NCBI RefSeq assembly: GCF_022026155.1
Contig: NZ_CP085041.1
Coordinates: 528,306-592,305, forward strand
Origin: Dissulfurimicrobium hydrothermale
GTDB taxonomy: Bacteria; Desulfobacterota; Dissulfuribacteria; Dissulfuribacterales; Sh68
DNA length: 64,000 nt
Reading direction: 5' to 3'
Every line of letters begins with the position of its first letter. Position 1 is the stretch's first letter. The notes under the pieces were generated by a model, which was given only the letters and a program-made list of their open reading frames with translations, had not been told where the DNA came from and ran no database searches. This document shows, one piece after another, positions 3,914 to 25,437 of the stretch. Position numbers and translations under genes: made by a program.

Positions 3914-3997
3914 GGTTTTCCGTCCATCTGTGTCGATTTGACTTATACATGGTATTAAACTAATTTTAAAGTCAATAGTACAGGCCTGCGTGAACAT

Positions 3998-5227
3998 ATG
4001 GAAATATATGTAGGCAGACAGCCTATATTGAATTCAGACCGGGAAACGGTCGCATATGAGCTCCTCTACCGCTCAGGGGAGAAAAATGCATTTCCAGGTA
4101 TGGACGGCACCGCCGCCACATCCAATCTTATCAATAACGCCTTCTATTCCATGGATATTAATGAGATAGTGGGCGGGAAGCGCCTGTTTGTCAATTTCAC
4201 GCGGGAACTACTCTTGAGCGGGCCCCCGATGCTTGACCCCAATAAGGTCGTGATAGAAATACTTGAGGACGTCCTGGTTGACGAAGCGCTGATTCAGGCC
4301 TTAAAGGCCCTGACCCATAAGGGTTTCAAGCTGGCGCTCGACGACTTTGTCCTTAATGAGGCGTCAAGACCGCTTATCCCCCTGGCCGATTATATTAAGG
4401 TGGACTGGCGCGCCAGCTCCAAAGAGGAGACAGGGGGAATAATAGATGCGGCGAGGCAGGCCGCAACAGGCCGCAATATCAAGCTCCTTGCCGAAAAGAT
4501 CGAGACCTATGAAGAATTCAGACAGGCCTTGAACCTTGGTTTTACATGTTTTCAGGGTTATTTCTTCGCCAGACCCTCTGTCATCAAGGGCAAGGATCTA
4601 TCGCCCGGCGTCTGGTCCATGTTAAGACTCATGACCGCGGTACAGGGGAACCACCTTGACATAAATGAGATATCCGACATTATTACCAAAGACCCGGCGC
4701 TGTGCTACAAACTCCTTAAGGTCGTAAACGTGGCCGCCGTGGGCCTCAGGCAGCCGGTGTCATCTGTCAAGCAGGCCATAGTTTTGTTGGGCGAGATAGA
4801 GATCAGGAGGTGGATATCCGTCCTTCTCCTGGCCCATTTGTCCGCGGATAAACCCACGGAGCTCATGAAGACCGCATGTGTCCGCGCATCCTTTGGAGAA
4901 AGGCTTGCAAAGGCCGCGGGACAGGCCGATTTGGCGTCAAATGCCTTTTTCATGGGGCTTTTTTCCCTGATGGATGCGGTGCTTGAAAGGCCGATCGAAA
5001 AGATATTAAAGCCCCTGCCCGTGGCCCCTGCGGTAAGCCGCGCGCTGATTGACAGCAAGGGCCCCCTCGCCCCGTATCTTGAATTCATGCTTGCCTATGA
5101 ACAGGGACATCTTTATGATATGGCAAGACTGATGGATGCATTGAGAATCAACGACGAGACAGCAATCAGGTGTTACCTTGAGGCTGTAAAATGGGCCGAT
5201 GAGGGCGGTGCGGCAGCTGCAGGTTAG
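3998..5227 (+). CDS. EAL-HDOD (YuxH-type) signalling protein
   Basis: 409-residue two-domain protein: an N-terminal EAL-type domain (about 1-200) and a C-terminal HDOD domain (about 205-405). The EAL signature is degenerate: YELLYR replaces E-A-L-x-R, but LFVNF, VIEILED, LALDDF, YIKVDW, LLAEKIE and FQGYFFARP align with the metal- and c-di-GMP-binding segments of the family, so binding or weak hydrolysis cannot be excluded. HDOD domains are HD-like folds often without activity that act as protein-interaction modules in signalling. The next gene, 11 nt downstream, is a diguanylate cyclase, so the pair probably forms a c-di-GMP module. Divergent from obg with an 84-bp gap. Confidence 0.88.
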   Translation: MEIYVGRQPILNSDRETVAYELLYRSGEKNAFPGMDGTAATSNLINNAFYSMDINEIVGGKRLFVNFTRELLLSGPPMLDPNKVVIEILEDVLVDEALIQALKALTHKGFKLALDDFVLNEASRPLIPLADYIKVDWRASSKEETGGIIDAARQAATGRNIKLLAEKIETYEEFRQALNLGFTCFQGYFFARPSVIKGKDLSPGVWSMLRLMTAVQGNHLDINEISDIITKDPALCYKLLKVVNVAAVGLRQPVSSVKQAIVLLGEIEIRRWISVLLLAHLSADKPTELMKTACVRASFGERLAKAAGQADLASNAFFMGLFSLMDAVLERPIEKILKPLPVAPAVSRALIDSKGPLAPYLEFMLAYEQGHLYDMARLMDALRINDETAIRCYLEAVKWADEGGAAAAG

Positions 5228-9265: not shown

Positions 9266-10561
9266 ATGAAAGATATGAAGGAGATGTACAGGACCATCCT
9301 TAAGGATCAGTTTCCTGACGAGCTCTGCATCTCGTTTGGGGATCAAACTTTGATATACCGCAAGAGGACTTGGGCCTTCAAGAACGAAAAGACAGGGCTG
9401 ATTGAAGAAAGGGGGCTTCGTTATGGTGAAAATCCTGATCAAGAGGCAGCTCTGTACGAGCTTGTAAACGGAAATCTGGTCATGGGCGGGTGTGCTTATA
9501 TAGGACCTGGAAACGGACTTGTGAGCGCCATTGATGAGGCTGCCATGCTTCAGGCGGGCAAGCACCCAGGCAAGATCAATCTCACAGATATTGACAATTC
9601 ACTTAATATCCTGAAATTCTTAATGAAAAAACCTGCCGCCGTAATCGTCAAGCACAACAACCCATGTGGTGTGGCCTATGGCGCTACGATTGAAGAGGCC
9701 TTTCAAAGGGCCCTGCGTGCCGACCGCGTAGCCGCATTTGGGGGTTGCGTTGCCCTGAACAGGCCTGTTGACAAAGGGACAGCCGAGGCCCTTTCCGCTC
9801 AGTATCTCGAGGTGGTCTGCGCCCCTCAATACGAGGAAGGGGCGGTGGATATCCTCGCCAGGAAGAAAAACTTGAGGATCATAGAGATAAGGCGGATAGA
9901 AGACCTTGAGACCTTCTGGGACAAACGCTTTGTGGATTTCAAGAGCCTCATTGATGGCGGACTTATCGTCCAACAGTCGCCTGTAAATCGGATCCGCACG
10001 AAAGAAGATCTTAGGCCCGCGGAATGTGAATACCAGGGGAGATTTTACCGAATAAAAAGGTTGCCCGACGAAAGGGAATACGAAGACATCTTGTTCGGGT
10101 GGTCTGTGGAGCAGGGTGTGACATCAAACTCTGTAATATATGTAAAAGACGGCGTGACATTAGGGATTGGCACAGGCGAACAGGATAGGGTGGGGGTTGC
10201 TGAGATAGCGGTTTATAAGGCCTATGCCAAATACGCTGACATCTTGTGTTATGACAGCCTTGGTATGTCCTATAAAGAGCTTGAGCTCAAGGCCGAACGC
10301 GGCGAAAAGGACGCAGCGGAAAAGAAGGCAGAGATAGATGCCAGGATCAAGGCGGATAGAGGTGGACTTCCTGGGTCAGTGATGGTCTCAGATGCCTTTT
10401 TCCCGTTCAGGGACGGGGTTGATGTAGGCATCCGTCAGGGTGTATCAGCCATTGTGCATCCTGGTGGCAGTCTTCGCGACTGGGAGGTCATAGAGGCCTG
10501 CAACGAGGCCGATCCACCTGTCGCGATGGTTTTTACCGGCCAGAGGGCGTTCAAGCACTGA
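9266..10561 (+). CDS. Stand-alone AICAR transformylase (PurH C-terminal half)
   Basis: Aligns with the formyltransferase half of PurH, which formylates AICAR in the ninth step of purine synthesis. Diagnostic segments are LRYGENPDQEAALY, PAAVIVKHNNPCGVAYG (the catalytic K-H-x-N-P-C-G motif), RVAAFGGCVALN, FFPFRDGVD and GVSAIVHPGGSLRD. At 431 residues it lacks the roughly 200-residue IMP cyclohydrolase domain of the fused enzyme; about 60 unrelated residues precede the RYGENP motif. A separate cyclohydrolase must be encoded elsewhere. The ATG at 9266 follows AAGAGG. Often annotated as IMP cyclohydrolase by similarity, which is probably misleading. Confidence 0.87.
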   Translation: MKDMKEMYRTILKDQFPDELCISFGDQTLIYRKRTWAFKNEKTGLIEERGLRYGENPDQEAALYELVNGNLVMGGCAYIGPGNGLVSAIDEAAMLQAGKHPGKINLTDIDNSLNILKFLMKKPAAVIVKHNNPCGVAYGATIEEAFQRALRADRVAAFGGCVALNRPVDKGTAEALSAQYLEVVCAPQYEEGAVDILARKKNLRIIEIRRIEDLETFWDKRFVDFKSLIDGGLIVQQSPVNRIRTKEDLRPAECEYQGRFYRIKRLPDEREYEDILFGWSVEQGVTSNSVIYVKDGVTLGIGTGEQDRVGVAEIAVYKAYAKYADILCYDSLGMSYKELELKAERGEKDAAEKKAEIDARIKADRGGLPGSVMVSDAFFPFRDGVDVGIRQGVSAIVHPGGSLRDWEVIEACNEADPPVAMVFTGQRAFKH

Positions 10562-10995: not shown

Positions 10996-12009
10996 TCATT
11001 TCCAGACCCCTTCTATCAGCGTCTTACAATCAGGGCATCCGCCGTTTTCAAGCCTGTTTTCTTTTATCCAAAAACCATGCCTTTTTATCACTTCGGAGCC
11101 GCACGACGGGCAATATGTATTTTCACCACCCTCCCCTGAGATGTTTCCCTCATATACATACTTAAGTCCTTCTTCAAGTCCGATCCGGCGCGCGAGCCTG
11201 AGGGATGAGATAGGGGTTGGAGGCTTGTCCATCATCATGTAGGTAGGATAAAAGGCCGTTACATGCCACGGCATGGCCGGGCTCACCCCTTTTATAAACC
11301 TCGCTATGTCCCTTAACTCTTCAGGTGAATCGTTAAGACCTGGGATGATCAGCGTTGTTACCTCCACCCAGGCGCCCAATTCGTGAAACAATTTTACGTT
11401 GTCGAGCACAGGTTTTAATTTCGCCTTACAGACCTCGCGGTAGAACCTTTCTGTAAAGCCCTTTATGTCTATGTTGATCGCATCGAGCACCGGGACAAGG
11501 TGTCTGGTGACATCCGGTGCCATGAAGCCATTACTGACAAAGACGTTTCTTATGCCTTTCTTTTTTGCAATGACTGCACAGTCGTATGCGAATTCATAAA
11601 ATATGGTTGGTTCCACATAGGTATAGCTTATGCTTTTCGCGCCGTTCAAGACGGCGGCCTCTACCACCTCGTCAGGTGTGTAATCGTCCCCTATGATTTT
11701 ACCCTTATTCATACGCGGATATTGTGAAATCTGCCAGTTCTGGCAGTGGAGGCACCTGAAATTGCATCCGACGGTTGAGATGGAATAGGAGGTGGAACCA
11801 GGCAGGAAGTTGAATAACGGCTTCTTTTCTATGGGATCGAGATTGGTCGAGACAAGCCTGCCATAGACCAGACTCACGAGACGTCCATCCTGATTCTCTC
11901 TTACGCCGCAGATCCCCCGACCACCCGTCTTGATTTGGCAGAAATGGTTACAAAGCCCGCATTTTACCATCTTATCTCCTTTTGTCTCATAAAAAAGGGC
12001 CTCTTTCAT
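10996..12009 (-). CDS. amrS: AmmeMemoRadiSam-type radical SAM enzyme
   Basis: 337 residues with the radical SAM cluster motif CNFRCLHCQNW (CxxxCxxC) at about residue 80, preceded by an N-terminal cysteine-rich segment CGLCNHFCQIKTGGRGICG and followed by SYTYVEPTIFYEFA and GLNDSPEEL, which are typical of the AmrS family (pyruvate-formate-lyase-activase-like). The C-terminus holds a four-cysteine, zinc-ribbon-like set (CPSCG and CPDC). The family is named for frequent linkage to MEMO1 and AMMECR1 homologues; neither is adjacent here. The start follows a strong AAAAAAGGAGGT stretch. Divergent from the CheD-like gene across 73 bp. The precise reaction is not established from this sequence. Confidence 0.88.
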   Translation of the reverse strand: MKEALFYETKGDKMVKCGLCNHFCQIKTGGRGICGVRENQDGRLVSLVYGRLVSTNLDPIEKKPLFNFLPGSTSYSISTVGCNFRCLHCQNWQISQYPRMNKGKIIGDDYTPDEVVEAAVLNGAKSISYTYVEPTIFYEFAYDCAVIAKKKGIRNVFVSNGFMAPDVTRHLVPVLDAINIDIKGFTERFYREVCKAKLKPVLDNVKLFHELGAWVEVTTLIIPGLNDSPEELRDIARFIKGVSPAMPWHVTAFYPTYMMMDKPPTPISSLRLARRIGLEEGLKYVYEGNISGEGGENTYCPSCGSEVIKRHGFWIKENRLENGGCPDCKTLIEGVWK

Positions 12010-12082: not shown

Positions 12083-12574
12083 ATGGAGCATATCTTGGTA
12101 AGAAGAGGCGGCATTGCTGTAAGCAGCAGCCCGGATACATGGCTGGTGGCCAGGTCCCTCGGCTCAACTCTATGTGTCTGCGTAAAGGATCAGACAGCCC
12201 TTGTGTCCGCAATGACGGTGATCGTCCTCCCCAGGGCTCCATCTGGCATAGAAGGTGACGCTGGTCTTGAGGAGGTTGCCCTTGATGCACCAGGAGGTCT
12301 TACCCGTCTCATGCGTGGGCTGATGAAAAGGGGTGCCAAGAGGGAAAATTTGAACATATGGCTCGTAGGGGCTGCCAAATTTATTGAAGAGCCCTCCGAC
12401 ATGGCGCTCGGCGCTCAGATCTATACCGCTGTCCGTACCATCCTTCAGGGTAACAGGGTCATGATACAGGGCGAACATGTGGGTGGGCAATACAACAGAT
12501 CGGTCAAGATGATTGCCGGTAAGGCTGGTGGACCTCTTGTTACGGCGCCAGGTCTTAGAGAGGTATCTCTATGA
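12083..12574 (+). CDS. CheD-like protein lacking the catalytic residues
   Basis: 163 residues aligning along its length with CheD, the chemoreceptor glutamine deamidase: SLGSTLCVCVKDQ, SAMTVIVLPRA, LMRGLMKRGAKRENL, LVGAAKF, GEHVGGQYNRSV. In active CheD the first two segments read LGSCVAVC and AMxHxMLP. Here the nucleophile cysteine is Thr29, the catalytic histidine is Val46, and the conserved threonine six residues before the cysteine is Ala23. Deamidation should therefore be impossible, leaving a binding role. The stop overlaps the start of the HDOD gene as ATGA, so the two are translationally coupled. No chemotaxis genes are nearby. The start follows CAGGGGAAAA. Confidence 0.8.
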   Translation: MEHILVRRGGIAVSSSPDTWLVARSLGSTLCVCVKDQTALVSAMTVIVLPRAPSGIEGDAGLEEVALDAPGGLTRLMRGLMKRGAKRENLNIWLVGAAKFIEEPSDMALGAQIYTAVRTILQGNRVMIQGEHVGGQYNRSVKMIAGKAGGPLVTAPGLREVSL

Positions 12575-13449
12575 GCCTTGATCTCTGTCCCCCGATAGAT
12601 TTTACACTGGAACATATATTCGACAACATTGTGGAGCTGCCGACATTCCCAAAGGTCGTTGCGAAGGCGCTTGCTATCCTTGACGACCCTAACGGAACCA
12701 TCGCCCAGCTGGTTGACGTATTGAGATTCGATCCGTCGCTTACGGCAAATATGCTACGCCTTACAAACTCGGCGCATTTCGGTCTCTCTAGGCAGGTCAC
12801 CGACCTTCATACCGCCTTGACCCTCTTGGGGCAGGTGCAGACGAGGGAGGTGCTGATAGCCAGTGCAGGCGCGCCTTATCTTGCAAGACCGCTTTCAGGA
12901 TACCTTATGGAGCCGAGGGATCTCTGGATCCACTCCATGGCCACAGCTATCATGGCCGAGATCCTCGGAAAGAAATGCGGTTATCCTGATCGCTCTATCC
13001 TATTTACATGTGCCCTTCTGCATGACATAGGAAAGATCGTGCTCAATATGTTCGTCGGCAACAGGCTTGACGAGATATTGACCCTGGCCCAGCAGGAAGG
13101 GCTTGCCTTTACAGAGGCGGAGTGGCGGGTGCTAGGCGGGGATCATGCGGTCATAGGTTCAGATATATTGAGACAGTGGGACTTTCCGCCAGATATAGTA
13201 AGGGCTGTGCGTAATCATCACGATCCCGACCTGTATGTCCATGACGATCTTTCGGCGCTCCTTGCGCTCAGCAACATCCTTGCGGTTCAACTGGGGATGG
13301 GTGTCGGGGCCGATGGATTCAGACACAGGATACGTCCTTCGCTGTATGAGCGGTTAGGCCTTTCCAGGGTGGATCTGCACATTTGCATCATAAAAGCCCT
13401 TGCGGAATACGAGAGGTCTTCAGATATCATAAGCGGCTTTGTGCCATGA
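12571..13449 (+). CDS. HDOD domain protein coupled to the CheD-like gene
   Basis: 292 residues, essentially one HDOD domain at about 15-215 (LPTFPKVVAKALAILDDPNG, LTANMLRLTNSAHFG, ALTLLGQ) followed by a helical tail. Unlike many HDOD proteins it keeps an HD-type metal motif, LLHDIGKIVLN, with later GDHAVIGSDIL and RNHHDPD, so phosphohydrolase activity is possible. HDOD proteins commonly act in two-component or c-di-GMP signalling. The ATG overlaps the preceding stop (ATGA), giving near-equal synthesis with the CheD-like protein and suggesting a physical complex. Confidence 0.88.
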   Translation: MSLDLCPPIDFTLEHIFDNIVELPTFPKVVAKALAILDDPNGTIAQLVDVLRFDPSLTANMLRLTNSAHFGLSRQVTDLHTALTLLGQVQTREVLIASAGAPYLARPLSGYLMEPRDLWIHSMATAIMAEILGKKCGYPDRSILFTCALLHDIGKIVLNMFVGNRLDEILTLAQQEGLAFTEAEWRVLGGDHAVIGSDILRQWDFPPDIVRAVRNHHDPDLYVHDDLSALLALSNILAVQLGMGVGADGFRHRIRPSLYERLGLSRVDLHICIIKALAEYERSSDIISGFVP

Positions 13450-22884: not shown

Positions 22885-25215
22885 TTAATCTATTCGGGAT
22901 GCCCTATTCACTGCATCGAGAAGCTCTTTTATGCCGAATGGTTTTTGCAGGAATACGGCCTCTTGGTCGGGGCCATCGGCAGTGTCTTGTGCATAGCCTG
23001 ACATATAGATCGCCTTAAGGCAGGGATATAGCCCTTTAAGCCTCTTAAAGACCTCCTTTCCGTTCATGCCGGGCATCATTAGATCGGTGATCAGCAGCTC
23101 GAGCGCCGGTCTGTCCTGTTCCGCCGCCTTCAGGAGTTGTTCCGGCTTCGTGAAGGTCAAGACCTTGTGACCCTCTGTCTTCAGTACCGATGAAATGAGG
23201 TCGCAAATCATCTCATCATCGTCCACCACTGCTATATAAAGTTCTTTTTGCGGTTTGGTTGGCTGGTCAAGATCCCATCCTTGGAGCGATCCTGTTTCTT
23301 CGATCTCCGTCTTTGGTGCTGTGGGGAAGTAGATCTTAAAAGTTGAGCCCTTGTCTGGTTCGCTGAAGACCTCTATTCTACCCCCTAGGCGGCTGACGAT
23401 GCCGTAGACCATAGACAGACCGAGACCAGTGCCTTTGTCCAGAGGTTTGGTGGTAAAAAATGGCTCGAATATCTTATGCTTGATCTCATCTGTCATGCCG
23501 CAGCCCGTATCGGCAACAGACAGCAATACATATTCGTCTATCTGTCCGTTAAAGCCCTTGTTGGCCTTGGCGGTCTCTATAGTGATGGTCCCACCATCCG
23601 GCATGGCGTCTCTAGCATTTATGACCAGATTCATTATCACCTGTTCTATGTGTGAGTCGTCGGCCATGATACGCGGCAGATCGACGCAGAGATTCAGTTT
23701 TACTTCTATGTTTTCACCCAGCGATTTAAAGAGCGAGCCCTTGAGATCGCTCAACAGGCTGTTGAGATCAATGGGCTTTTGGGTGAAGGGTTGTTTTTTC
23801 GCGAAGGCGAGTATCTGTCTGACTGTTTTAGCCGCCCGCTCGGCGCCCCTTTTGATCTCGGCTATGTATTGATGCATTACATCGCCAGGCCTTACAAGCC
23901 TTGCGGCCATCTCCGAATAGCCGAGTACGGGCATAAGGAAATTGTTGAGATCGTGCGCGATGCCGCCCGCCAGCCTCCCAATTGCCTCCAGCTTTTGGGA
24001 CTGTCGAAGCTGTTTTTCCATCTCCTCCTTTTCCATCTCCAAGGCCTTTTCTCTGGTCACATCCCTGCCGGCGCCTACCGTCCCTATAATCTTTCCATTT
24101 TCATCGAAAAAAGGCGCCTTGTATACATCCAGGAACAGGAATTTGCCCCTTACGTTTCCATATTCGTCGAAGTGCTGTTTGCGTTTGTTTCGCATAACCA
24201 CTTCATCGGAATTTTGGCATATCTCGCCGAATGTATGCCAGTCTGGCCGGTCAGGCCTCTGGGCGCGGGATCTCTCGGCGAAAAACACATCATCCTTCCC
24301 GATAGGTTCATCAGGGTCGTTTGCACCCAGGAAGTCGCAGGTCGCCTTGTTTGCAAAGATATAGCGTTTTTGCATGTCTTTTGCCCAGATCATATCAGGG
24401 ATGGTGTCTATTGTGAGTCGAAAGAAACGGTATGCCTCGGTTATCTCCCGTTCCTTTTCCTCAAGTTTGTGTAGGAGTTCATAGTGCTGCGTCACATCCT
24501 CATGGATGCCCATGATCTTTAGGGCCCTTCCGTCACTGTCTCTTCCCATGGCCTTTCCGCGGGAGTGTATCCATATCCATCGGCCGTTTCTGGCCCTTAT
24601 GCGATATACTGCGTCATATACCTCCGTCCGCCCTGTAATGTGACCTTCCAGGGTGTCAAGGGTCTTTTTCTTGTCTTCCGGATGGAGTAATTCCGTCCAA
24701 AAGTCGAGGGATGGCCTTACCTCTTCGGGCAGAAAGCCCTTTATCCTGGCCCACATGCTGTCAACCACATACCTTCGCGAAGACACGTCGAGTTCCCAAG
24801 TGCCCAGATTTGCCGCTTCAAGGACGAATTTGAGCCTTTGGTTGCCTCTCTCGATCTCGGCCTCTTTGTTTATCATATCAGTCACGTCTATGATGTAACC
24901 GATGTAGTTGATGATACGATCCGATTCGTCCCGAACAATGGTGGTGAAATCCAGTATATGGATGATCCCTCCTTCCCTTGTGATGAGCCTGTAGGGATTT
25001 TGTCTAAAGTGGTTGGCTCCAGAGGCTGAACAGCGTGCCGTCTCGATCTTGACCCTCTCCAGGTCTTCGGGATGGATGATCTGGGTATAGCGGATCAGGC
25101 CCTTTTCAAACTCTTCTATGGAATAACCAAGGACATCTTTGACGTTTCCTGTTGCAAATACTACGGGCCAGCCCTCTTCATTTTTTCTGTCTAGTACGAC
25201 GACAGGCCCTTGCAA
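22885..25215 (-). CDS. Hybrid PAS histidine kinase with receiver domain
   Basis: 776 residues from a TTG at 25215: three PAS domains (about 1-115 with GYSIEEF, 125-250, 260-390), a HisKA domain with the phospho-acceptor in [17 protein letters not shown] (about His418), an HATPase domain ([31 protein letters not shown]) and a C-terminal receiver with DDDE, phospho-acceptor [13 protein letters not shown] (about Asp711) and LQKPF. No membrane span, so a cytoplasmic sensor. The TTG has no ribosome site and starts within the first PAS; an ATG at 25249 with AAGG upstream is one frame off across a C6 run, so the true N-terminus is probably about 11 residues longer. Convergent with guaA. Confidence 0.9.
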
Positions 25216-25437
25216 AAAGGCGGAGCAGTACTTTTGGGGGGTTTTCCATATCGTTTACCTTATTACCCGAGGGTGTTTTTTGATCAGGTTTAAAATAAAT
25301 TAAAAGATCTCGATGTCAAATGGACTTTATGAAAAATGTTTTCGCCATGTCTTATCAAGATCGCCCGGCAGGCCAGTGTCCATTTACCGATTTGATGCGT
25401 TTCGCCATGGGTTGTCTATGACCCGCTGGCCCATAAC

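Follow-up and report, generated by a model that had tools for sequence, protein, structure and literature searches.

Why would a CheD-type protein that has lost the catalytic residues of its family be encoded by a gene that overlaps one for an HDOD protein? The question is raised by a locus of Dissulfurimicrobium hydrothermale (assembly GCF_022026155.1), located in a stretch of 64,000 nt of contig NZ_CP085041.1 (positions 528,306 to 592,305, forward strand). This whole stretch is referred to as the window, and feature coordinates are positions within it. As described below, the pair includes a CheD-family pseudoenzyme and forms a conserved CheD-HDOD module of apparent chemotaxis origin.

A CheD fold without its catalytic triad

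The upstream gene of the pair (12083-12574, plus strand) specifies a 163-residue protein that matches the Pfam CheD profile (PF03975) with 42.6 bits, above the curated cut-off of 25, and aligns with Thermotoga maritima CheD (2f9z_C) in a phmmer comparison (E = 6e-9). Its best score against the NCBIfam equivalog profiles, 61.7 bits, lies below the cut-off of 240. An AlphaFold (AF2) model, obtained with the window protein and 28 relatives as input, has a pLDDT of 93.3 and a pTM of 0.89. When this model was submitted to Foldseek, the top PDB match was 2f9z_C (TM 0.81/0.85); NTAN1 and then YfiH-type proteins, which represent the wider fold, came next. The profile match, the model and its closest structure all agree with the initial annotation, which had proposed that the CheD fold is retained.

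The Thr21-Cys27-His44 triad (T. maritima CheD numbering) is absent from the window protein. In the alignment with 2f9z_C, Ala23 (codon 12149-12151, plus strand) occupies the position of Thr21, Thr29 (12167-12169, plus strand) that of the nucleophile Cys27, and Val46 (12218-12220, plus strand) that of the catalytic His44; these are the same replacements that had been read from the sequence at the outset. With the fold kept and the triad gone, receptor deamidation is therefore not expected. No second CheD was found in the genome, where the inactive protein is the only one present. Further along the same alignment, Phe100 (codon 12380-12382, plus strand) falls opposite the Met of the T. maritima GGASMF motif and Ile101 opposite its Phe. 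Phe100 would be the equivalent of the Met in the CheC/receptor-contact loop of Bacillus subtilis CheD, in which mutation of M101 bears on deamidase activity and mutation of the adjacent F102 on binding (PMC3513319).

Could the protein still be an enzyme, with a relocated nucleophile or some other chemistry? Two cysteines of the window protein, Cys31 and Cys33, lie near the site, and in the family D36 and E160 are invariant and E131 and R139 nearly so. However, not one Cys or His is invariant across the family, the old Cys position varies freely (T, C, A, G, S, N), and CheD is now less conserved than its HDOD partner. Homologues from the order to which D. hydrothermale belongs were inspected for the catalytic Cys/His pair at the aligned or at a shifted position and none was found to have it; neither the complete triad nor the Cys-His combination occurs in any of 30 sequences from the order, the window protein included. 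Cys31 and Cys33 were ruled out as shifted catalytic residues, since they are not conserved in the alignments of relatives. Altogether, continued catalysis appears very unlikely.

The HDOD partner and the surroundings of the pair

The downstream gene (12571-13449, plus strand) encodes a 292-residue protein that scores 176 bits with the HDOD profile PF08668 (curated cut-off 22.9) and is related to solved structures including PDB 3hc1. The open reading frame coordinates place an ATGA at 12571-12574 (plus strand), shared by the stop of the pseudo-CheD gene and the start of the HDOD gene, and an HDIGK motif lies at 13021-13035 (plus strand); both features had been noted previously and both are present. 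Elsewhere in the window, another HDOD-like sequence scores weakly (33 bits) at 3959-5227 on the plus strand.

The conservation of this arrangement was examined in 46 genomes from the order. Pseudo-CheD is present in 32 of the 46 genomes, counting the window's own (in one of them it is split across two contigs); the genomes that lack it are the 11 of family f2 and three others. In all of the 29 order relatives for which both genes could be read, the HDOD gene is the next one on the same strand, its product being 51-80% identical to the window HDOD; the start codon lies at a 4-base overlap in 26 of these loci. Since the arrangement is repeated at 29 of 29 related loci, it exceeds what is expected by chance.

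A gene for an AmmeMemoRadiSam-type radical SAM enzyme (TIGR04337, 356 bits) is the divergent neighbour of the pair (10996-12009, minus strand) and flanks it in 14 of the 17 stand-alone loci that were inspected. The recurrence of this neighbour makes the locus look old and vertically inherited; the gene itself is probably a synteny marker outside the mechanism. Beyond it, at 9266-10561, lies a gene for a 431-residue PurH-like formyltransferase (at most 285 bits, under the curated cut-offs). Its match leaves out roughly the first 200 positions of the PurH profile, and the gene is kept in the vicinity of the pair in 10 of 17 loci.

Chemotaxis-cluster pairs and the stand-alone clade

CheD proteins of the active type, with an intact triad, adjoin HDOD genes as well. 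We annotated 40 loci from a phylum search against the E. coli Che proteins. A frequent gene order in them is cheA-(cheW)-(mcp)-cheR-cheD-HDOD-cheY-cheB, although adjacency frequencies are biased because the loci were selected by similarity to the window CheD or HDOD. Genome contigs were also scanned with the HDOD alignment, the CheD alignment being too variable for scanning and a single-sequence search having found no relatives. Among the matches listed, cheD-HDOD adjacency was seen in contigs titled Neomarinimicrobiota, Cloacimonadota, Phycisphaerae, Armatimonadota, Verrucomicrobia, Calditrichaeota and others. Many phyla have chemotaxis clusters in which an HDOD gene separates cheD from cheY (L061-L100, L122-L219); this common arrangement has apparently been little described.

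In addition, nine distinct CheD-HDOD fusion proteins were identified, mostly of about 450 residues, with Cys and His kept. The fusions are found in loci L041, L044, L045, L048-L052, L099 and L184, a CheR-like gene coming next in the last two. Fusion and inactive pair occur together in several of the order's genomes, among them G001, G005, G006, G013 and G019. The model of a fusion has a pTM of 0.69 and a poor linker. In genome G018 (L042/L120), the CheD of a chemotaxis cluster is interrupted and spread over two frames in the assembly.

These data bear on the possibility that the two genes are simply co-transcribed and that their products never touch. Four-base overlaps are frequent in bacterial operons; however, this pairing is exclusive and long-lived, with a constant gene order, and both the independent fusions and the same adjacency in the che clusters of many phyla speak against a purely transcriptional link, which we consider unlikely. 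The fusions with an intact triad are an independent pointer to a physical association, and the formation of a CheD-HDOD complex is in our view quite probable. Together with the che clusters of many phyla, the active fusions indicate that the partnership is older than the loss of catalysis. Some triad-intact pairs without che genes in the retrieved stretch exist too. Thus, as active fusions and active lone pairs attest, separation from the che cluster is not enough on its own to abolish the triad.

To place the stand-alone pairs, quick trees with SH-aLRT support were built. In a tree of 62 stand-alone and 100 other CheDs, calculated with the catalytic columns and column 100 left out, the 62 form one clade with no intruders (SH-aLRT 98). 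The HDOD tree returns the same clade, again with no intruders (60 rows, SH-aLRT 99), and in a smaller HDOD tree the nearest relative of the clade is an HDOD from a che cluster (SH-aLRT 94). The stand-alone pair thus appears to descend from a che-cluster cheD-HDOD pair. The clade comprises members from the window's order, from family f39 (match in 28 of 30 genomes), from family f72 and from genome G305, as well as at least two contigs named Thermodesulfobacteriota/Thermosulfurimonas among the matches listed. HDOD adjoins CheD in 61 of the 62 members by script and, upon inspection, also in the remaining one (L228), where the HDOD frame runs through the CheD gene; the neighbourhood first noticed in the window is therefore conserved throughout the clade.

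The residue at position 100 is aromatic in all 62 clade CheDs (F in 44, Y in 18) and in none of the 100 others. The change to an aromatic maps to a single event on the CheD tree and is shared by the two members in which the triad is intact (genomes G343 and G413). The catalytic positions behave differently: Cys and His are both kept in 2 of 62 proteins inside the clade versus 99 of 100 outside, and the triplets found in the clade include TCH (the two members just mentioned), TCQ, TCE, TCV, TCI, TGH, TGC, ATV and AGF. Parsimony requires at least 5 changes of Cys, at least 10 of His and at least 8 of Thr within the clade. Hence, all three residues are gone from the window protein, but the loss was piecemeal; some relatives retain only the Cys or only the His, and two retain all three. 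In an independent-pairs test of genomic context against triad loss, the stand-alone clade, having a single origin, counts as one event. Outside these pairs, a che cluster of genome G270 contains, next to an intact CheD, a second CheD-like gene with an A-G-H triplet that is flanked by cheY and cheB (L067:6373-6888); it is apparently another, independent pseudo-CheD.

Loss of the triad and a divergence faster than that of HDOD might also be read as signs of a decaying gene, retained just for the translation of HDOD. Yet, the dN/dS of clade CheD genes ranges between 0.04 and 0.31 (19 close pairs, wherever dS is finite), the fold residues are conserved and the frames are open throughout. These dN/dS values identify CheD as a protein maintained under purifying selection and largely refute pseudogene decay, an explanation that we find barely credible.

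Within the clade, CheD proteins have a mean pairwise identity of 28% and HDOD proteins one of 46%, as opposed to 48% and 36%, respectively, for pairs in che clusters. HDOD is the better conserved partner in the clade, the inverse of the situation in chemotaxis clusters; because each comparison involves the same taxa for both proteins, the inversion goes beyond what taxon spread alone would produce. CheD and HDOD identities correlate with a coefficient of 0.94, a value that ignores shared ancestry. The HD-type ligand pattern, H-HD-H-HH, is kept in 59 to 60 of the 60 clade HDODs; the last Asp of the set is changed to Asn in 56 of the 60. Retention of the ligands does not set the module apart, since unpaired HDODs, a set drawn from the same loci and scans and biased by having been found partly through HD motifs, keep the ligands as well.

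Chemotaxis context and possible role of the pair

No match to E. coli-type CheB, CheR, CheW, CheY or MCP was found within the 64-kb window, whose sole chemotaxis-like match is a weak CheA-like one (21 bits, 22885-25254). Matches in the genome overall include five MCPs, two CheAs and four CheBs. The initial remark that no chemotaxis genes are near is thus correct locally but misleading, given the apparent origin of the pair and the occurrence of MCP and CheA in the genomes. Indeed, each of the order's 32 genomes that carry the pair has both, as do all 22 genomes of family f39 that are at least 90% complete. CheA is lacking from five genomes of the order, every one of them a member of family f2, which makes the co-occurrence of pair and chemotaxis a phylogenetically confounded, weak argument. 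CheC/CheX-like matches were obtained in 10 of the 46 genomes, with scores of only 21-25 bits.

One interpretation of this context is that the module has left chemotaxis. HDOD would then be a metal- or nucleotide-dependent effector and pseudo-CheD its allosteric regulator or specificity subunit, acting on a target other than an MCP, such as flagellar gene control or second-messenger signalling. In agreement with it, the retrieved stretches of all 62 clade members contain no che gene, many of these stretches being only about 3 kb long, and the 16 members from the order for which 5-20 kb could be seen have at most one lone, weak MCP-like gene (60-70 bits). Moreover, HDOD is better conserved than CheD in the stand-alone clade only, and HDOD proteins elsewhere (GsmR, Cj0248, SadB, PSPTO_4229) affect motility (PMC11004494, PMC11813219). 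On the other hand, MCP and CheA occur in every checked genome with the pair that is at least 90% complete, the pair originates in a che cluster, and the CheD fold is retained with its contact loop altered, not lost. On balance, we regard a departure from chemotaxis as rather unlikely. The presence of MCP and CheA in pair-bearing genomes favours the receptor array as the target of the complex, a proposal to which we give slightly less than even credence.

A triad that is lost, a fold that is kept, a loop refitted once and a single partner gene are what is expected when an enzyme turns into a docking subunit. We therefore favour, with confidence about evenly balanced, a role of pseudo-CheD as the docking subunit of a CheD-HDOD module, probably tuning receptor arrays by binding alone. 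The two genes would encode a dedicated two-protein signalling module in which pseudo-CheD docks onto its HDOD partner, while its old substrate-binding face probably also binds the helical cytoplasmic part of chemoreceptors. Output of the receptor/CheA complex would be tuned through binding, largely as by B. subtilis CheD, for which binding outweighs deamidase activity (PMC3513319). HDOD, with its HD-type ligand residues, would be the conserved and probably signal-responsive half, taking toward CheD the role that CheC has in B. subtilis and T. maritima.

The window protein shares its fold, length, core motifs and contact-loop position with the CheD deamidases of T. maritima (2f9z chain C) and B. 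subtilis, which are known to bind a partner protein. Unlike them, it has Thr, Cys and His replaced, is encoded outside a che cluster and is paired with HDOD rather than CheC. To our knowledge, CheC is the sole well-studied CheD partner. The CheC-CheD pair of these two species resembles the present one in that CheD has one dedicated partner; HDOD, however, belongs to a family other than that of CheC, and its link to receptors or CheY is hypothetical here. The window HDOD has the domain (PF08668) and the HD-type ligand pattern in common with GsmR, Cj0248, SadB and PDB 3hc1, for which a CheD partnership is not described in the literature examined. Group-alpha che clusters of Geobacter include a gene for a single-domain HD protein; the text reporting it makes no CheD link for this gene and mentions neither stand-alone pairs nor triad loss (PMC2577667). 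A search of the open-access literature found no paper naming both CheD and HDOD.

More tentatively, HDOD may be a CheD partner that has been overlooked in many bacterial chemotaxis systems, a functional counterpart of CheC. One Desulfobacterota-type clade may have left the che cluster and become a binding-only regulator, the CheD enzyme being lost piecemeal and the partnership kept. The che-cluster pairs of many phyla, the active fusions and this clade constitute a natural experiment that parts the binding role of CheD from deamidation, two roles whose separation has until now been argued mostly through B. subtilis mutants. If this is correct, HDOD, described as a domain of unknown function (PMC11004494), would gain a concrete molecular partner.
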